A stretch of 64,000 nt of DNA, from contig JADFUC010000501.1 in the NCBI GenBank assembly GCA_019722365.1, positions 248,001 through 312,000 on the forward strand. The letters are read 5' to 3'. A program made the position numbers and the translations under genes. Below the pieces are notes generated by a model. It saw only the letters and a program-made list of their open reading frames with translations. It did not search any database and had not been told where the DNA came from. How positions within the stretch are numbered: the first letter of the stretch is position 1; every line of letters starts with the position of its first letter. Origin of the DNA: Lithospermum erythrorhizon (taxonomy: Eukaryota > Streptophyta > Magnoliopsida > Boraginales > Boraginaceae). This document shows, piece after piece, positions 28,946 through 44,088 of this stretch.

Positions 28946-31900
28946 ATGGCTGAAGATAATTTTGTGGAAAATGACCCATCTGTTGTGAATGATATGGATA
29001 ACCTGGAAGATGCTGAGGATAATTTTATGGGAAATGACCCATCTGTTGTGAATGATATGGAGAATCTGGAAGATGCAGAGTATATTTTTGTGGAAAATGA
29101 CCCATCTGTTTTGAATGATATGGAGAATCTTGAAGATGCTTATGATTTGGAGATCACGGATACAGTAAATGTGGAGTCACTAGAGAATTTGGGGAATTCA
29201 GAGAATGAAGAATGTGTGAAGATCTCAGAGAACGTAGGAAATTTAGAGAATGTTGAGAACGTAGAGACTGCAGAAATTATGGAGAATGTGGAGAATTTGG
29301 AAAATGTAACTAATGTAATCAAGGATTCACATCCAGAAAACAATTCAGAAATGAAGGAGGAAAAAAAGTGGCCTGGTTGGCCTGGAGAAAATGTTTTTAG
29401 AATGCTGGTCCCTGTTAAAAGTGTGGGTGGTATAATTGGTCGCAAAGGAGAGTTTATCAAGAAGATTTGTGAGGAAACTAAGTCGCGCATTAAAATTCTA
29501 GATGGCCATCCTGGCACCAATGAAAGGACTGTGAGTATCTCCAATATACATTGTTATATATGTTTGAAACTTGTCAACAAATTAACGTGCCATGCATATT
29601 TCTTATTTATCTTCAAATAATGATAATATTCCCGTTTGTAGAGTTTCGATATTGTCTTCCATTTATTAACAATAGTTATGTACACATGGATGGTTTTACT
29701 TGTGAGTTCTACTTATCTACTATAGATTGGGAGTAAATGCCTTGCTCGTCAATGTTCTGGCAATATATTTTGATCTTTCACATGAATCTTTCTTCACTTG
29801 ATTCAACTTCCTTATTTATGTAATGTTGGATTCTTTAATACAAAACTAGGGTTTGATGTATCACTTCTCACGTCCTTAAATTATAGATAAAATGGGTGGA
29901 TTTTAACACATAAATATATTGGATAAGACAAAGTCTATTAAGAACTAACAAACACATATTCTTGCAGCTGTAAATCAATCTGTTACCAATCACAAACAAT
30001 ATTCACAAAGAAGGCTCAAATACTGAATAATAAGTTATGAACAATCTTAATTCAATTAAAAAATTGAAGATTAATAAATTGAAAAAAGAAGAAGGAAAAG
30101 AGTCAAACTAAAAGAAGTGTACTATTTTAGTAACCAAAATGAGTATGTGCAGGTATTTGTCGTAAGACAACTTTTCTATCTCAAAGTGGCTTCAAAATAG
30201 AAGAGCCAAAGATCCAGGCTGCAGCAATCAGCATTGAGCTTGCAAGTTCTGAAACGATATTCTTACTTTGTTAGAAGTACCTTGTGCGGGACACCTGTAC
30301 CAGAGGCATTTCTCTGCATCTGGTAACTTCGGAATTGGTCAGTTGGTGTCTTAAGAACCCTTGTGGAACAAAAATATTAGCAAACAAGCTGATATTACAT
30401 GGGAAACTAATATAAGGAAAATTAATGAAATTCATAAGGCTACTGATATAGATGTATAGTTATCCATATTACATGTTACAGTAATATAGAAAAAAAAAAA
30501 AAAAAAAAACAAAAAAACTCTCAAGCCTACTGATATTGATGTATAGCTATCTATCTGTTAAACTCAATTCGTACTATTGAAATTAAAATTCAGAACTCAA
30601 TCAATTAATATGAAATTCTCATAAAATTTATAAGATTCTGATTGAAAATTGATGTTAGAAGATAGTTTTTTTTTTCTGCAATATAAGTAATATGGTCCTA
30701 ATTAAAGTATTTTCAATTTAGTAGGTAACTAGAAATCCCACCAATGCTTAAATAATTCGACTATCAAATATTTTAAGCTGAAACCTATATTTTGGAAGGA
30801 CATTGTAGAACTACATGAGATTATGTCACATCTAATGTGTATTGAGTGAAAAACACCAGAACACCACAATAATCCCCTCGCCCCCAGTTTTTTTTATAGT
30901 AAATGATGATGTTGGTTTGTACCTTTTCACATTTCAAATTTATCCCAAGTAAATTAAATTTGTGTAACCCCACTGAAAAAGAGTTAAGCATGCTTTTAAA
31001 GTAAATATTGTATAATTTTAGAAAATTGACCATTGTGTATTATCTATTATGGTTTCATACATTTTTCCCTCCATCGCCCATTCATAAGGGCTGTCAAACA
31101 TTTACAATGGTAGAAACTATGCAATTATAACCTTAAAACTTTAATATTATTAAAAAGCCAGTCTTTTATATGTATGCAAGCTGCTGGAATCCTGCGTCTG
31201 GGTAAAAGATTACGTGTAATTCAACTGGACTATCTTTCGATTGTTTCCAATCTTTTGAGGGTGTCAAGTTATGTAAGTTCTGTGACACGATAAACTTGAT
31301 GGTAGTTTATTTTGATTTTCCGCATGATCTATGCTTAAATCTGGTCTTTGCAAATGTGGATCCATACCTTTTTTCCGGAGTAACACCTGCTTTGATTTTT
31401 TGTCACTCTCTGAATTATTACCATTATCAGGTTTTGGTATCTGCCAAAGAAGAGCCAGACCTCCCCATTTCGCCTGCCATGGAAGGTCTTCTTACTATCC
31501 ACAAACGTATGATAAACGGTGACACAGATCCTGCTAATTTGTCGTCTGGTGGTACAGTTTGCACGAGGTTACTTGTGGCTGCTGCACAGGCAGGAAGCTT
31601 GATTGGAAAACAGGGTTCTACTGTCAAGTCCATTCAAGATGCTTCCAACTGTATTGTTCGAGTTCTTGGCGGAGGTAGCATTAGCACATATATGGGCTCT
31701 TCACTCATGCTTCATGATTTTCCTGGAATACTTTGTTCTAATCTGTGATCATGCATTTTTCTGTTTATCTGTTTAAGTGATTGAATCTGTATTTGGAAGT
31801 GCATCTTACTGATTGTTCTCTGTACTATTTCATATGCTTAGTTGGTGGTTATCTAGTCTTTCATAATTTTAACAAGGATACCCCAAAGTTTTAGCGAGAT

Positions 31901-36170: not shown

Positions 36171-36545
36171 ATGCCTCAACAGCATTCAATACCCTTTATC
36201 CACCCCCCCTCAACCCCCCTCCCAAACATACCCAATGTCACCTTTTTACCCCCCAAGCCAACCATGTCCCAAAACCCTTGTCCACTTTCCAACACTTTAT
36301 ATCCAACAAGGAATTTATTATGCACAAGGATTTATTCAGTGCTGAATTCAAAAGGGGCAACAAATGGTTCAAGTGATTGTAATAGATATGATGGAAGTAG
36401 TGTTGCAATAAAGAAATCTGTCGACGTGGCAACTCTTGGGAATTTGTGTGTTGATATTGTGCTTAATGTTCCGAAATTGCCCCCAACATCACTCATTCAA
36501 CGTAAAGCTTATATGGATCAATTGGCTAAATCACCTCCGGATAAG
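36171..36545 (+). pseudogene. pfkB-family sugar kinase, orphan first exon
   Basis: An open first exon (125 codons) starts MPQQHSIPFIHPP and has a plausible plastid-type Ser/Pro-rich leader. It reaches the conserved start of a pfkB-type carbohydrate kinase: VDVATLGNLCVDIVLNVPKL, then KAYMDQLAKSPPDK. The donor is AAG|GTTTTT. In relatives the next exon starts with a KYWEAGGNCNVA-type sequence, which holds the sugar-binding GG. I find no such exon anywhere before the myosin gene starts about 2.5 kb downstream on the same strand. The catalytic domain is therefore missing and the locus is a truncated gene. The exon itself has no stop or frameshift. Confidence 0.8.
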
Positions 36546-36637
36546 GTTTTTTTTTGTAGCTCAATTACTGTTAAAACAAGTGTTTATATAGCACTGACTT
36601 ATGATTTATCGGGTTGTTGTTTTTTGATGTTGTTGTA

Positions 36638-37579: not shown

Positions 37580-39040
37580 TCAAAATTACTTGCTTATTCT
37601 ATGGGGCGAGCTATTGAATGAGGCTCAATGTATCTTTGTATGTCAGCAAGCAATCCCTCCCAAAGCTCCTCATTCAAGTACGCCTGTTTATTCTGACTCT
37701 CCCTGATTTGGAATGTGAGCTCAGATCCCAGTCCTGATTCCTGAACCTGCCAAGAACAGGCTGACTAAAAAGTTGCCGCTTCAAAAATAGACTTATTTTG
37801 ATTTGAACACCTCAAATTATTACCTGACCTGCAGTGACATACCTGAGACCTTTCACACTGCAACAGAGCCTGTTTCTTATTATCAAGAATATGACGCCAG
37901 AGTGGCCTATTTTGCAAGAGCATCTGCTTAACTCCATTGTGTTTCCTCTGGCTTATCCGAAATTCTGTTGTGGATCATTGCCTTGAAGTCTCTCAATACA
38001 CAGCAGCCAAAACTATCAGCTCTTTTTGCAGCCAAGCCAAGCAAAGGGAAATAATATAAACGAGTCTTTATCCCGGTTTAACTGATTGCCTGCCAAGATC
38101 CACTTTAAACCAATCAAAACCACCTGGGAAATGCTGAAACTCCCAATTTTCCATCATTGTCTTGGAATATTGTCAATTAAACACTGTCTCAAGACAGTTA
38201 TCTCATTCCCAACTGAAAACCTCCAGAATGGCTGAGTCAAACCCCTGATCTTCAAGCATATGGTTTCAGAATCACAAGATATTCCTCCTATTACCAACCA
38301 GAATCTCCTAGCCTGAGAACGAACCAGAACTCCAGCCTTACTTTATGCCAAGACTCAAGCATACTTTTACGTCACCAACTTAGTCTTAGAAAGTCTCAGA
38401 GTGCAAGAAAGTCCGCCACCCTGTTTTCAACCTTAAAGGCGCCCAGCCAAAAATGAGATCCCACCGGAACTGTATAGACTTGCAGGACCCCATATGCCGA
38501 ACTTTCTCCTGATGAATCATGTTTCAAAAAGGGTCCTTCGAGCTGCACATATTCAAATTACCATTTGAATCACCATATCCCCATAGCCAGATGCCATTAT
38601 CAAAAATCTCACCAAAGTCGAAACTTGAGCCTCTTGGCTTCCTTCCACAAACGGTCAAACCACTGTGAACTGCAAACCCAAAACCCCCTATCAGCCTGAT
38701 ATTTGCAAGAAACCTCAAACTAAAGGAGAACCAGCCGAAAAGAAGGGAAAAACAAAAACATGCGCGACTTGCTCTTGGGGAAGCCTTTTTACGATTGGAC
38801 TTATTCCCTGAACTAGTTTTATTTCAGTTTGTTTAAATAGCCTGAACACAGCTTCAAGGGGAGCATTGGTCTTATGGGAACTGCAATTAGTCTGTGCTAC
38901 AAAGCTCCTTGACCAGAATGGTTTTGCAGTCCTGAGTGTCCAGCCTCCTGTGATATTTACATTATGCCGGAGAGGTAAATTTAGGGGATAGGTATATCCC
39001 ACCCCTTTATAAACATTGTGTCCCCTAAGATCCCAAGAAA
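37580..39040 (-). pseudogene. Unrecognised decayed coding-like block
   Basis: By eye this block is clearly less A+T-rich than its flanks. Read on the minus strand it gives several coding-like pieces: FDNGIWLWGYGDSNGNLNM (about 38,560), YVQLEGPFLKHDSS then GSHFWLGAFKVENRV (about 38,400-38,550), RFWLVIGGISCDSETI (about 38,280), RADSFGCCVLRDFKAMIHNR (about 37,980), MLLQNRPLWRHILDNKKQ (about 37,900), and a final SELTFQIRESQNKQAYLNEE ending in a stop near 37,599. Stops and frame changes lie between them, so it is a pseudogene or a captured fragment. I do not recognise the family. It sits precisely between the truncated kinase and the truncated myosin. Confidence 0.4.
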
Positions 39041-39068
39041 GTACTTGAAAGTGAGTCAGTGTACTGAG

Positions 39069-42000
39069 CACCCCAATAACAAGACATCTTCGCTGGAGTT
39101 TCTGAATCGATTTGGTCGTCTTGCACCAGAGGTCTTGGAAGGGAGGTCAGTTATATGATATGTTCTGAAGTTTGGGGAAACCTCTCAAAATCAATTAGCC
39201 ATTACTATTCATTGCCAGTTTTGTATTGGTTTTTAGTTTTAACCTTGTAGTTTCATTCTTGTTTTCAGTTATAATGAAAAAGAATCTTGTAAAATGATTT
39301 TGGACAAGATGGGATTTACAGGCTACCAGGTAATCTAAAGTTCTTAACCCTTGTCACCTTAAAACTTGGGATTTTTCTCATGAACTCATAGTGGAACAAA
39401 GTTACATATAAAACATAGATTCCACCAATATGCACATTTGTCTCAAACTTGAAGCTTCATTGAAAATATGTGGCGTACCTTATAGATCTTGCTATTACTA
39501 TTTTTCTAAAATTGCTTAGAAATTAATTACCTAACATGGAAGAATTTCAATATTAAAACTGAAGTGAATACCAACATGAAATGTAAACCGTTATACTCTT
39601 ATTTTCTCGAGCTTGTATATATGTCCTTAAATTACCCATCTCCTCCCTTGAAGTTTCTAACTTACTGAGGAAGGAGAGAACCAGAGAGTATTGGCTTTAT
39701 TTAATTCTTTCAATCTTTTTCTTGCTTAGTATTATTTTTTCACGAAGCAAAGATTTTTACATACAATTGTCATAATGTATTTTTGGTTGTGCTTCTAGAT
39801 AGGCAAAACGAAAGTTTTTCTGAGATCTGGCCAAATGGCTGCTCTGGATGCACGCAGAGCATATATTGTTAATAGTTCAGCCAGGAAAATTCAGACGAGG
39901 AGTAAACGTCATATTGCCAGAAAACGTTATGTTGCTGTACAGAAGGCTGCAGTTGATATTCAGTCATTCTGTCGAGGTTCGTCTATGAAAAATACTCAAA
40001 AGACTTAAACGCCTCTATAGAACGGGTAAACAAAGTACTGTTTTAAGATTTTCATGTTACAAGATAAAGAGCCAGATACTGATACTTGACCTTTGAAGTT
40101 TGCCTTTGACCTGAACATATGTGGATCTTAGACTGTGAATGGATGTACATGTAATGTAAAATCCTGCCTTGAGTCATAAGTTCTTATATTATGCCTCTTG
40201 GAACTAATTCAGAAGTCAACGATGTTTTCTGACTTAAGGCAAGAACTTCAAAGGAGTATATCTCTTGACTTTTGCAATGAACCACGCAACACCACATGCC
40301 CCCCAATAGACTCCCGTGTAAGTTAGGTAAGAGGATGTCCGATTGTATACAACTTACCCCTGTGATTACGGAGAGTCTATTTCCGAATTGACCAGAGATG
40401 AAGTGCAAGGTCTATCTACTACTTCACAAGAGATTAGAAGTGTAGGTAGCATAGCGTCGGAGGGTAAGGTTGCCTACAACCCGACCCTCTTCACCCTGCT
40501 TAGGCAAGAGCCTCTTTAAAAGGCATTGAGACATGTTATTTTTTGAAAATATGGATAAGAAAGTGTTGACTGTTGACTATGGCTGCTACTTTGTTCTTGT
40601 GTGACTGATAACTAGAGTCTTGAAACTCATCAAGGAAGTAACAACAATGATTTGGTAAAGTAACTGTCACATTTGAGGACAAATTGGTACAATTAAGTAT
40701 ATTTGTCAATTCTTCTGTGTCAATTCGATTACATTGCTGACTGAACGCTTGAAGGTTGTTTCTATCTTATCATTGAGATGGTGGATTGCTTTGATATCTA
40801 TATATTTTGTTTTCAGATTTAACCTTTTCATTCGACTATTTCCAGGATTGCTAGCCCGCAGATTGTATAAAAATATGAAATTGGATGCTGCTTGTCTGAA
40901 AGTTCAGTCAAAGTTGCGAGGACATTTGGTCAAAAGGACCTATACAAATATGAAGTTAGTAGCTATAATATTGCAGACAGGATTTCGAGCATTGTCTGCC
41001 CGAAAGGAATTCCATGTTAGGAGGCAAAACAAGGCTGCCACTAAGATACAGGTCATTAACTTGTGATTCCTTCACTTAGAACAATACAGCCGTTGTCTGA
41101 TTTTGAGTTATAATGTTGCAGACAGGATTCCGTGCATTGTCTGCCCGAAGGGAATTTCAACTTAGGAGGCAAGATGCCCGAAAGGAACTCCAATTTAAGA
41201 AGCAAAGCAAGGCTGCAACTAAGATACAGGTCATTGACTTGGGATTCCTTCACTTAGGATCAATACAGCCGTTATCTAACTTTGAGTTATAATGGTGCAG
41301 GCAGTATTGCGGGCAATGTCTGCCCGCCAGAAATTTCAACTTACGAGGCAAAATGCCCGAAATGAATTCCAATTTAGGAGGCAAACCAAAGCTGCAACTA
41401 AGATACAGGTCATTGACTTGGGATTCCTTCACTTAAGGATTAAGACAGCCGTTGTCTGATTTTGAGTTATAATGTTGCAGGCAGAATTCCGAGCAATGTC
41501 TGCCCGAAAGGAATTCCAATTTAGGAGGCAAAACGCCCGAAATGAATACCATTTTAGGAGTCAAATCAAGGCTGCAACTAAGATACAGGTCATAGACTTG
41601 GGGATTCCTTCACTTGAGGATCAATACAGCCGTTGTCTGATTTTTAGTTATAATTTTGCAGGCAGAATTCCGGGCAATGTCTGCCCGAAAGGAATTCCAG
41701 TTGAGGAGGCAAAATGCCCAAAAGGAAGTCCAATTTAGGAGGCAAAACAAGGCTGCAACTAAGATACAGGTCAGAAACTTGTGATTCCTTCAATTAAACA
41801 ATCAATATAACAGTCGCCTGATTTTGATTGAGGATATTTGCAGGCTCATTGGCGTGGTTACAGTTCTGCTTCATACTATAAAAAGCTCAAATATGCAAAA
41901 GTTATAACACAAGCCAGATGGAAAGGAAGGGTTGCAAGGCAAGAAGTTCGTGAATTAAAAATGGTAGGTCATTGAATTAATTTATTCTACTATTTTTTAA

Positions 42001-44088
42001 TACCTTTGCATGCTATGTGTCTCATTTATATAAGCACACATCCGACTTCTCCTATTTCCCAGTCTTCTTTATTTGAGCTTCTCATAACCAATGGAAGATC
42101 CAAAATTGGTGATGATGGGGAAAGAAACAATTTTGTTAGACATTTATTAAGAATGTAACAACGAAGATATGAAGCAAGACAAGTAACACAGTTAATAAAT
42201 AGTGACTGAGTTAACTACTTGATCGAATATATGAAGCACCACCATTAATTAGGAACCGAGATCGAAATATATTTCAATTTAATTACTTAATATATAAGAA
42301 ATATTTTCTTTGTTTCTGATACTGAAGGATTATAAGAAATACTTTATAAATAACTTCCTATCCCATGAATAGTGTTTGCCTATTACATCTAAATTTACAA
42401 CTTTACAATGCTGCCAATACTATAAACTATGAAGTTAATTTTAGATTAATATTGACCTTTTGAGTTATGCTGAACTTATGCATAGTAACAGGAAAAGCAA
42501 AATTATTGGGGATGTTTATATCCTTTGGAGGCATAAATAGACAAGTCTCTAAGGCATGGCGGTGAATATATTTTCACATGTCAGCATAACATTTCTTTCA
42601 AGATATCCAAACCCTCTTCATTTTTTACTGAGGTGAAATCTCTGTGTTACTTACAGGCTTCAATAGGAACTGGTCCAATCAAAGAAATAAATGACAAACT
42701 TGAAAAACAGGTGGAAGATCTCACAGTTGTGGAACAACGCCTGAGGGTAATGATACTCTTTTACCAAACATACTCTATGAGAATTTAGATTCCAGAACTT
42801 AAAAAAAATAGATTCAACTCTTGTTATTATCGTCTGCAGACTGGCCTGGAAGATGCTAAACATCAGGAGATAACAATATTACAGAAATCCTTGAAAGCTA
42901 TGCAAATAAAACTAGATGAAACGAATGCTTTGCTTGCCAAGAAATGTAAGGCTCCTCAGAAAGCAATTGGAGAGGTCTCCTCTATCAGTATTGTCAAAGA
43001 AACTCAAGTGTCCGTTGAAAACTCTGTAAATACTGAAGCTCTTAGCTCTGAAATTGAGACCTTAAAGGTACCTAGGATCACATGTTTCTTTCTTTCGGAA
43101 GCCACTGTGTTGAGACTTCCAAAACCTGTTCAATTCATGCAGTCTCTAAGGTGATATTGTTCATCAGGTCTCACTAAATTTAGAGAAACATCGAGCTGAT
43201 AATTTAGAAAAAAGTTACTCGGAAGCACTGGAATCAAATCGAGAAAAGCGTCGCCAGCTAGAAGAAACTGAAACAAGAGTTCATCAACTTCAGGAATCTT
43301 TGAATAGGTAAAGAAACTTTTATCCAGAGTTCTTTCCTTGACTACTCATGTTCTTATGAGTATGATGTCATAGTTGTCAATGAATGTATAAGTTTTAAGT
43401 ACTTTCTGGCCAGCAGTTACCGAATGCCGTTTGATCTGTTCACTCAATTTCTCGAAGAATAAATTTGAGAATATGAACTTCCTTTTAGAATATTCTGCTT
43501 AAATATTCATTTTTTGTCTAGTACTAAATACAATCTGGTATGCTCCAGGATGATATACAACATGTCAGACCGATTTCTGGAGCTGAAAATGATTTTGAGT
43601 GGGTCATTTGACTCTAGTTCACGGATCATTGTTGGGGAAACTATCAGTGATGATACTTCCTCTTCCTCTTCCTCCTCCGACAGTTCGTCCACTGACTCTG
43701 ATTTCACATTTCCAGCTCCCTCTTCAAATGCAGCAAACTTTTCTTCCTCTGATCCTGGTGGTTTCCAGCTCATAGTTCAGGATTTTTCAGCTACTGAAAT
43801 TTCAGGTCAATATACTACTCTCAGTCCTGAACATTGGTCTTTACAGTAGCAACACGCATCTGCTAGTCACCGCCTTGTAGATGGATACAATTTAATCATC
43901 TTAGGACACTGAAAATCTTCGGCTACTTATTTTGCAGTAGATACATACCCTAGCTGCATTCAGTTTTGTTCGAATAAGACACCATAAGAAGTTCCATTAT
44001 ATATCTCCTTTTCTGTTCATGGTTGCATTCTGCAGGATCTGAAAATGGCGAAAGCGACAGGGGAGGATCCTTTGATGACTTCTTCTGA
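39069..44088 (+). CDS. Motorless class XI myosin with expanded IQ neck
   Basis: Fourteen exons: about 39069-39145, 39269-39329, 39799-39976, 40846-41051, 41122-41229, 41301-41408, 41481-41588, 41662-41769, 41844-41963, 42657-42746, 42840-43067, 43168-43307, 43549-43805, 44036-44088. Phases are consistent, about 613 residues. It opens at the very end of a motor (EFLNRFGRLAPEVLEGS, then GYQIGKTKVFLRSGQMAALD, the class XI converter-to-neck junction). Ten IQ-like motifs follow, then a coiled coil (NDKLEKQVEDLTVVEQRLR) and a Ser/Asp-rich tail ending GGSFDDFF. There is no DIL globular tail, so it resembles a short-tailed XI-J-type member. The roughly 700-residue ATPase part is absent: PEPPER and the kinase fragment occupy the upstream DNA on the same strand. 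Homology fades near 39,040-39,060 and the true 5' end is unknown. Confidence 0.85.
40290..40385 (-). mobile_element. SINE-like fragment, minus copy
   Basis: Read on the minus strand: GGGGTAAGTTGTATACAATC, GGACATCCTCTTACC, ACGGGAGTCTATTGGGGGGC. This order resembles the 3' part of plant SINEs of the type GGGTAAGG.TGCGTACA..CCGACC...GGGAGCCTC. It lies in myosin intron 3, head to head with a plus copy. Confidence 0.5.
40400..40535 (+). mobile_element. SINE-like fragment, plus copy
   Basis: GGGTAAGGTTGCCTACAACC, CGACCCTCTTCACCCTGC, then AGAGCCTCTTTAAAAGGCA in the same order as the neighbouring minus copy. No A/B-box promoter was identified with confidence. Confidence 0.5.
40977..41843 (+). repeat. 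Tandem array of IQ-encoding exons
   Basis: The last 75 nt of exon 40846-41051 (TGFRALSARKEFHVRRQ, NKAATKIQ) are followed by four homologous 108-nt exons starting at 41122, 41301, 41481 and 41662 (steps of 179, 180 and 181). Each encodes a variant of AEFRAMSARKEFQFRRQN, then ARNEFQFRRQTKAATKIQ. All start after TG(T/G)TGCAG-type acceptors and end AAGATACAG|GTCA. All are phase 0-0 and free of stops. Intron lengths are 70, 71, 72, 73 and 74. Each exon junction KIQ|xxFRA..AR..F rebuilds one IQ motif. Confidence 0.95.

Follow-up and report, generated by a model that had tools for sequence, protein, structure and literature searches.

The locus and its neighbours

The 64-kb stretch of Lithospermum erythrorhizon DNA analysed here (the window) contains, on its plus strand, the neck, coiled-coil region and tail of a class XI myosin in which the exon that codes for the fourth IQ motif is followed by an array of related exons (Table 1). 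The preserved part encodes 617 aa and terminates at a stop codon at 44088, and all of its exons are open up to that point and are joined at GT/AG junctions. It is the counterpart of residues 696 onward of P0121, a separately deposited L. erythrorhizon model of 1312 aa that is annotated as an 'actin binding motor protein' and encoded on a contig of 53,632 bp, and of the Pfam motor domain it retains approximately 57 residues at the C-terminal end. A Pfam search of the window model found IQ but not Myosin_head. P0121 has a complete motor domain, with a match over the full Myosin_head profile (E 2.6e-254), and no Pfam match to DIL. The initial annotation described a lengthened myosin neck; this holds for the array, but the window does not contain a whole myosin gene, since the motor upstream of 39060 is missing from it.

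Table 1. Features of the myosin locus, in window coordinates.
Feature	Position	Strand	Basis
End of motor domain; homology to complete myosins starts here (from residue 696 of P0121)	39060..39145	+	tblastn
Converter exon, with first in-frame ATG of the preserved model	39269..39329	+	gene model, splice sites, tblastn
Exon with IQ1 and start of IQ2	39799..39976	+	gene model, tblastn, weight matrix
Parent exon: rest of IQ2, IQ3, IQ4; duplicated coding part is 40977-41051	40846..41051	+	repeats, gene model, alignment
Exon-internal AGCTATAATATTGCAG, ending TTG-CAG (L-Q, first two residues of IQ4); source of the i0-i3 3′ splice sites	40961..40976	+	16-nt match
Extra exon copy 1 (TGFRALSARREF...KAATKIQ)	41122..41229	+	repeats, gene model, alignment, weight matrix
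Extra exon copy 2	41301..41408	+	repeats, gene model, alignment, weight matrix
Extra exon copy 3	41481..41588	+	repeats, gene model, alignment, weight matrix
Extra exon copy 4	41662..41769	+	repeats, gene model, alignment, weight matrix
Original next exon, with motifs 9 and 10 (ancestral IQ5 and IQ6)	41844..41963	+	gene model, tblastn, weight matrix
Three post-neck exons (42657-42746, 42840-43067, 43168-43307); coiled-coil region by homology	42657..43307	+	gene model, tblastn
Two short-tail exons (43549-43805, 44036-44088); about 100 residues, ending SFDDFF and stop	43549..44088	+	tblastn, gene model

The window and P0121 share the same short tail and are identical at 600 of 618 aligned positions. 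When 615 aligned residues are compared, 15 differ, 6 of them within the first 13 model residues and 9 beyond; the remainder of the exon that contains these first 13 residues is identical. A difference of a few percent is unremarkable for the Leryth assembly, from which the window comes and which we take to be that of PMC7261806, because its LePGT1 protein is 97.06% identical to LePGT1 (PMC7261806, in the sections available).

Upstream of the myosin, a KH-domain gene at 31.5-34.4 kb matches Leryth_000498 (P0233) at every exon except for residues at exon edges. An additional upstream exon of this FLK-like gene (28958-29146) encodes three near-repeats of 21 residues; the Leryth_000498 model starts downstream of it, at 31479, and omits it. 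An open stretch at 36171-36560 includes the peptide VDVATLGNLCVDIVLNVPKLPP, which we take to be typical of plant pfkB-type kinases. This ORF has no Pfam hit and, by eye, no continuation downstream, as if this gene too had been cut short near the point at which the myosin breaks off. On the minus strand, a weak match to scramblase (37765-37971; E 1.2e-4, below the Pfam curated cut-off) lies amid frames with stops, and the segment 46531-47336 holds several degenerate tandem repeats whose periods range from 19 to 110 nt. RNA families and tRNAs were not reported in the window.

Four additional exons follow the IQ4 exon

Between the parent exon and the original next exon lie four extra exons, which the initial annotation had described as 108 nt long, open, in phase 0-0 and equipped with intact splice sites. 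Repeat finding and the gene model confirm each of these properties, with AG before and GT after every copy. Tandem Repeats Finder identified a period of 181 nt with 4.5 copies, 87% matches and a score of 1188, and direct-repeat families were concordant. The introns across the array, i0 to i4, measure 70, 71, 72, 73 and 74 nt. Each unit comprises the last 75 nt of the parent exon together with an internal duplication of 33 nt. The parent exon ends in the I-Q that normally starts IQ5 (KIQ|).

The quality of this assembly has been disputed (PMC8435551, in the part available), and an array of this kind might be produced when an assembler multiplies one true exon. We consider such an artefact very improbable. 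The exon copies are only 84-90% identical to one another, and differences of 10-16% make the multiplication of a single unit unlikely. The P0121 model, encoded on another contig, also argues against an artefact, since it has the same four 36-residue units, identical to the window at 144 of 144 residues.

The reading frame is open with the array in place, which gives ten IQ motifs, and also with all four exons omitted, which gives six. This property, and the uniform length and phase of the exons, would suit a set of alternative cassettes, so that the protein would not always contain them and its isoforms would vary between six and ten IQs. We regard this as doubtful: all four units are present in the deposited protein model P0121, and in the grass 11E genes a cluster of similar exons seems to be spliced constitutively, as judged from cDNA clones that cover the first of them (PMC3850447, in the passages at hand). 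The array is predicted to be included in the mRNA.

The joined frame encodes ten IQ motifs

To classify the motifs we used position-specific weight matrices built from 101 distinct necks, which in control scans gave 0.024 hits per shuffled neck and 0.24 per 700 residues of motor domain. The scan detected ten IQ motifs in the joined window frame, and the proposal that this neck has ten motifs where class XI myosins usually have six is thus borne out. All four copies were classed as IQ4, with scores of 24.9-30.3 vs 11.7-18.2 for the next best matrix, and they sit between IQ4 and IQ5. Five of the six ancestral motifs were assigned to their own positions; the exception, IQ1, scores slightly better as IQ3. 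The new motifs are rebuilt across exon junctions, as had also been proposed: the exons end in KIQ| and the motif continues at the start of the following exon. Five key IQ residues are invariant across the copies (uncorrected p 0.041).

Spacings between successive motifs along the neck are 23, 25, 23, 25, 36, 36, 36, 36 and 23 residues. The array motifs are 36 rather than 25 aa apart because of the 33-nt internal duplication in each copy. Between the GQMA anchor and the coiled coil, the fully translated neck spans 298 aa, as in P0121, vs the usual 154. These observations support the earlier claim that the neck of a class XI myosin was lengthened through tandem exon duplication.

An exon-derived splice acceptor at the origin of the array

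Exon-derived sequence forms the ends of four of the five introns, and in it the codons that open IQ4 (...ATATTGCAG) constitute a new in-frame 3′ splice site. The ends of i0 to i3 match the exon-internal AGCTATAATATTGCAG at 14, 13, 14 and 14 of 16 positions, compared with 7/16 for i4, the intron before 41844, which looks like it has retained the original intron end. A search of both strands of the 64-kb window for further sites with at least 13/16 matches to AGCTATAATATTGCAG found none. These matches indicate that the duplicated segment started within the exon. Alignment of the units agrees with an exon-derived acceptor, and the 33-nt insertion is common to all four copies.

We propose that the duplication took in a stretch that begins within the IQ4 exon and extends into the intron behind it, and that the ...TTGCAG of the exon itself, which codes for the L-Q at the start of IQ4, would act in every new unit as a phase-0 3′ splice site. 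This acceptor corresponds in position to the junction that follows the Q in IQ5, and with a phase-0 acceptor at the L-Q of IQ4 each unit would splice in frame and add one whole IQ4-like motif. The 33-nt internal duplication would then have stretched the spacing to 36 aa, in a unit that is now present four times. For the order of events we infer a first duplication, then the 33-nt internal duplication and then amplification. When the 33-nt half-units are compared by distance, first and second halves are not cleanly separated, and the order is therefore unsure and conversion between copies possible.

A more general property of IQ-coding sequence may be relevant. The Q of the IQ is coded by CAG in 5/6 ancestral motifs of the window gene. 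A codon pair that ends in a CAG-coded Q would provide a latent 3′ splice site of phase 0, matching the register of the natural intron that follows the Q of IQ5, so a duplication that runs from exon into intron could yield an extra IQ in frame.

Divergence among the copies

The initial annotation reasoned that copies which all stay open and spliceable imply either recent origin or selection. The argument proved weak, since the 25 non-synonymous changes from consensus (with 9 synonymous) are close to the mean of 26.1 non-synonymous changes in a neutral simulation, and the simulated chance of encountering no stop in the copies under neutrality is 0.19. A Ka/Ks-type comparison of the repeated exons by the Nei-Gojobori method gave dN 0.10-0.19 and dS 0.15-0.26. 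Overall, the sequence tests gave little evidence that the extra exons are under selection at the protein level. Other measures were mixed. Length changes are confined to introns (uncorrected p 0.03, from a rough count of four events), and exon copies diverge more than introns do (15% vs 9% in three unit pairs). Between the window and P0121, 0/144 changes fall in the array vs 9/451 elsewhere, a difference that is not significant (p 0.12). With mixed, weak results from several uncorrected tests on one small data set, we do not claim selection; the pattern suggests to us that the copies diverged in a nearly neutral way, and that any constraint on frame and motif is mild at most.

The myosin groups with short-tailed class XI proteins

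Myosin classes are defined through phylogeny of the motor, and within class XI the subtype 11D has a short tail coded by two exons (PMC3850447, in the passages seen). By its motor P0121 belongs to class XI: it has a full Myosin_head, and its nearest relatives among the matches listed are plant myosins, many of them named XI or myosin-9/11/17. In the six-IQ neck, which is customary rather than class-defining, it departs from them with ten motifs. Its C-terminal stretch, coded in the window by the two short-tail exons, has the tail form of subtype 11D, with no DIL in P0121.

In a motor tree of 31 rows, which had no class V or VIII outgroup and in which proteins were labelled short or long by us from tails and Pfam lists, P0121 falls within a clade of 25 rows with the sampled short-tailed proteins (support 95/84); no row is a sequence that PMC3850447, in the part available, labels 11D. 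The branch that leads to P0121 is long (0.26), and its partner in the tree is Impatiens (83/81), not another lamiid. Taken together, tail form and motor tree place the window myosin with short-tailed subtype 11D of PMC3850447. Members of this subtype, many of them deposited as 'myosin-9' or 'myosin-9-like', share with the window and P0121 the motor grouping, six ancestral IQs in order, a coiled-coil region and a two-exon tail ending in (A/S)FDDFF (PMC3850447, in part). They differ from the window locus with its four extra IQ4-type exons, and their neck is 154 rather than 298 aa long.

In the same tree, short- and long-tailed proteins of Rhododendron (P0129/P0222) and Actinidia (P0127/P0201) have the same motor, with zero-length branches, as if they were splice forms of one gene.

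Neck growth in related myosins

Relatives were collected from the best 120 of 196 and the best 120 of 719 proteins, and 232 distinct proteins were scanned for IQs. The searches needed shared words and admitted candidates of 333-1058 and 661-2103 aa; arrays in other proteins could therefore have been missed. Six motifs were found in 177 of the proteins listed, ten in 1 (P0121), eight in 6, seven in 12 and two to five in 36, some of which are partial. Neck length was measurable in 153/233 rows, the window among them. It was 154 aa in 125 rows and 152 aa in 6, fell within 94-150 aa in 12, reached 298 aa only in the window and P0121, and ranged over 175-371 aa in 8, which include rows with an odd end pattern or model, such as Prunus, Morus and Sesamum. 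The short-tail pattern was passed by 62 listed proteins, of which 32 have six motifs, 12 seven, 6 eight, 1 ten and 11 fewer.

Besides P0121, 18 listed proteins had at least seven IQ hits. Sixteen are named Populus or Salix, and these rows are not independent, several being models of one gene; the others are P0152 and P0182. Seven of the 18 were inspected. In P0182 (Phlomoides) the seventh hit comes from the coiled coil, and in all six Populus/Salix proteins inspected a second IQ5-like motif lies 41 aa past the first. Short-tailed myosins of Populus and Salix (P0147, P0158, P0205) thus resemble the Lithospermum protein in repeating a neck unit, but the part of the neck that is repeated is another one, with a second IQ5-like motif followed in some by a second IQ6-like motif; the first IQ6-like motif scores weakly (about 11). 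In Prunus (P0042, P0045, P0100) an IQ4-type motif is repeated, as in Lithospermum, and there occurs three times, but the repeats are 23 aa apart, IQ5-IQ6 is not seen in the deposited models and the total stays six. Long Asteraceae 'myosin-9' proteins were considered as cases of neck growth and rejected, as the neck, read by eye, looks normal and it is the coiled coil that is longer.

Grass 11E1 and 11E2 provide a further parallel, with tandem, similar exons of equal phase inserted in frame into a class XI gene, although there the exons number ten and fourteen and encode coiled coil rather than neck (PMC3850447, in the available passages). The initial annotation knew of no comparable IQ-exon array in a plant myosin, and we likewise found no report of one among the titles and abstract openings of the one library searched. 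Any suggestion that neck growth by IQ repetition is unique does not stand, given Populus and Salix proteins that score seven to eight IQs.

The missing motor half

A tblastn search of the 64-kb window with P0121 and seven relatives, six of them with motor sequence, found no motor before 39060 beyond two chance-level hits (E 9.6). A motor that is present upstream in noisy sequence was also considered and rejected: frameshift-tolerant alignment of 36.6-39.1 kb scored 46 on the plus and 37 on the minus strand, against 36, 38, 36 and 45 for four simple shuffles. An AG precedes 39060.

A misassembly that removed the motor half from the window contig, and left the array itself correct, is in our judgement the probable cause. 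For this assembly, DBG2OLC was used to combine long and short reads that came from two different plant sources (PMC7261806, in the sections available), and the accessible portion of a later paper calls it misestimated and misassembled, at 367 Mb vs about 709 Mb (PMC8435551). P0121, from another L. erythrorhizon contig, is complete. Its nine differences from the window beyond the first stretch count against this explanation, and the KH proteins of the two deposits, P0257 and P0233, are only 83% identical, so P0121 could be another myosin copy.

Less plausibly, the window holds a real truncated, headless or dying copy that lost its motor through rearrangement, with the array a by-product of relaxed constraint. 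The failure of Pfam, tblastn and frameshift-tolerant alignment to find a motor is consistent with such a copy, as are the divergence from P0121 of the first stretch after 39060 and the neutral-like changes among the array exons, and headless class XI genes are known in plants (PMC3850447, in part). Preserved exons that are all open to the stop, with GT/AG junctions, argue against this reading. Moreover, the array of P0121 accompanies a full motor, and the array is therefore not tied to loss of the head. Neighbouring genes also bear on this point. Judged by locus tags alone, the KH gene lies close to a myosin in six other plants. That myosin is short-tailed in Paulownia (Pfo_017602/017606), Erythranthe (ABFX02_14G207000/207300) and Anisodus (K7X08_003389/003393), but carries a DIL domain in Penstemon smallii (ACJIZ3_011821/011829), Buddleja (Bualt02G0209400/0208000) and Rhododendron molle (Rhmol13G0040800/0041100). 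With neighbours that are short- or DIL-tailed, the 11D group has probably long occupied this location, though the same is less firm for the short-tailed gene; it fits an original locus, even if the neighbour is long-tailed in some species. Misassembly is a more likely reason for the absence of the motor in the window assembly than a real truncated allele.

Discussion

We conclude, with a probability of about 0.78, that the array genuinely extends the neck in a class XI myosin of the short-tailed, subtype 11D type, and that it arose via tandem exon duplication. If all motifs bind light chains, the lever arm should be about twice as long as usual. Binding of calmodulin-like light chains to the added motifs, as the IQ sequences predict, would stiffen a neck of approximately twice the normal length, and a dimer would reach further along actin, with a longer stride. 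The 36-aa spacing also leaves about 11 more residues than normal between light chains, so the arm could be more flexible.

In the parts of the literature available, stride and speed in myosins V and XI are set by neck length, and the longer-than-normal necks that are discussed are engineered (PMC3437519, PMC8872768, PMC7054003). A myosin V with eight IQs takes longer, multi-peaked steps (PMC7054003). In that construct, as in Lithospermum, the lever is extended with extra IQs, but it is a laboratory product in another class. In some plant XI myosins the IQ sequences differ widely from the calmodulin-binding motif that is usual (PMC8872768, in the excerpt available).

More tentatively, IQ-coding sequence may be able to seed exon arrays, and short-tailed class XI myosins may alter lever length in this way, reaching ten motifs in Lithospermum and seven to eight in Salicaceae, there via a unit of approximately the size of the next exon; the added motifs, at a spacing of 36 aa or ten helical turns, would carry their light chains on one face. 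The conversion of exon sequence into a splice site would offer a clear example of how exon arrays begin. If the reading is correct, a natural neck of ten motifs, together with relatives that have seven to eight, would open questions of lever length to evolved motors.
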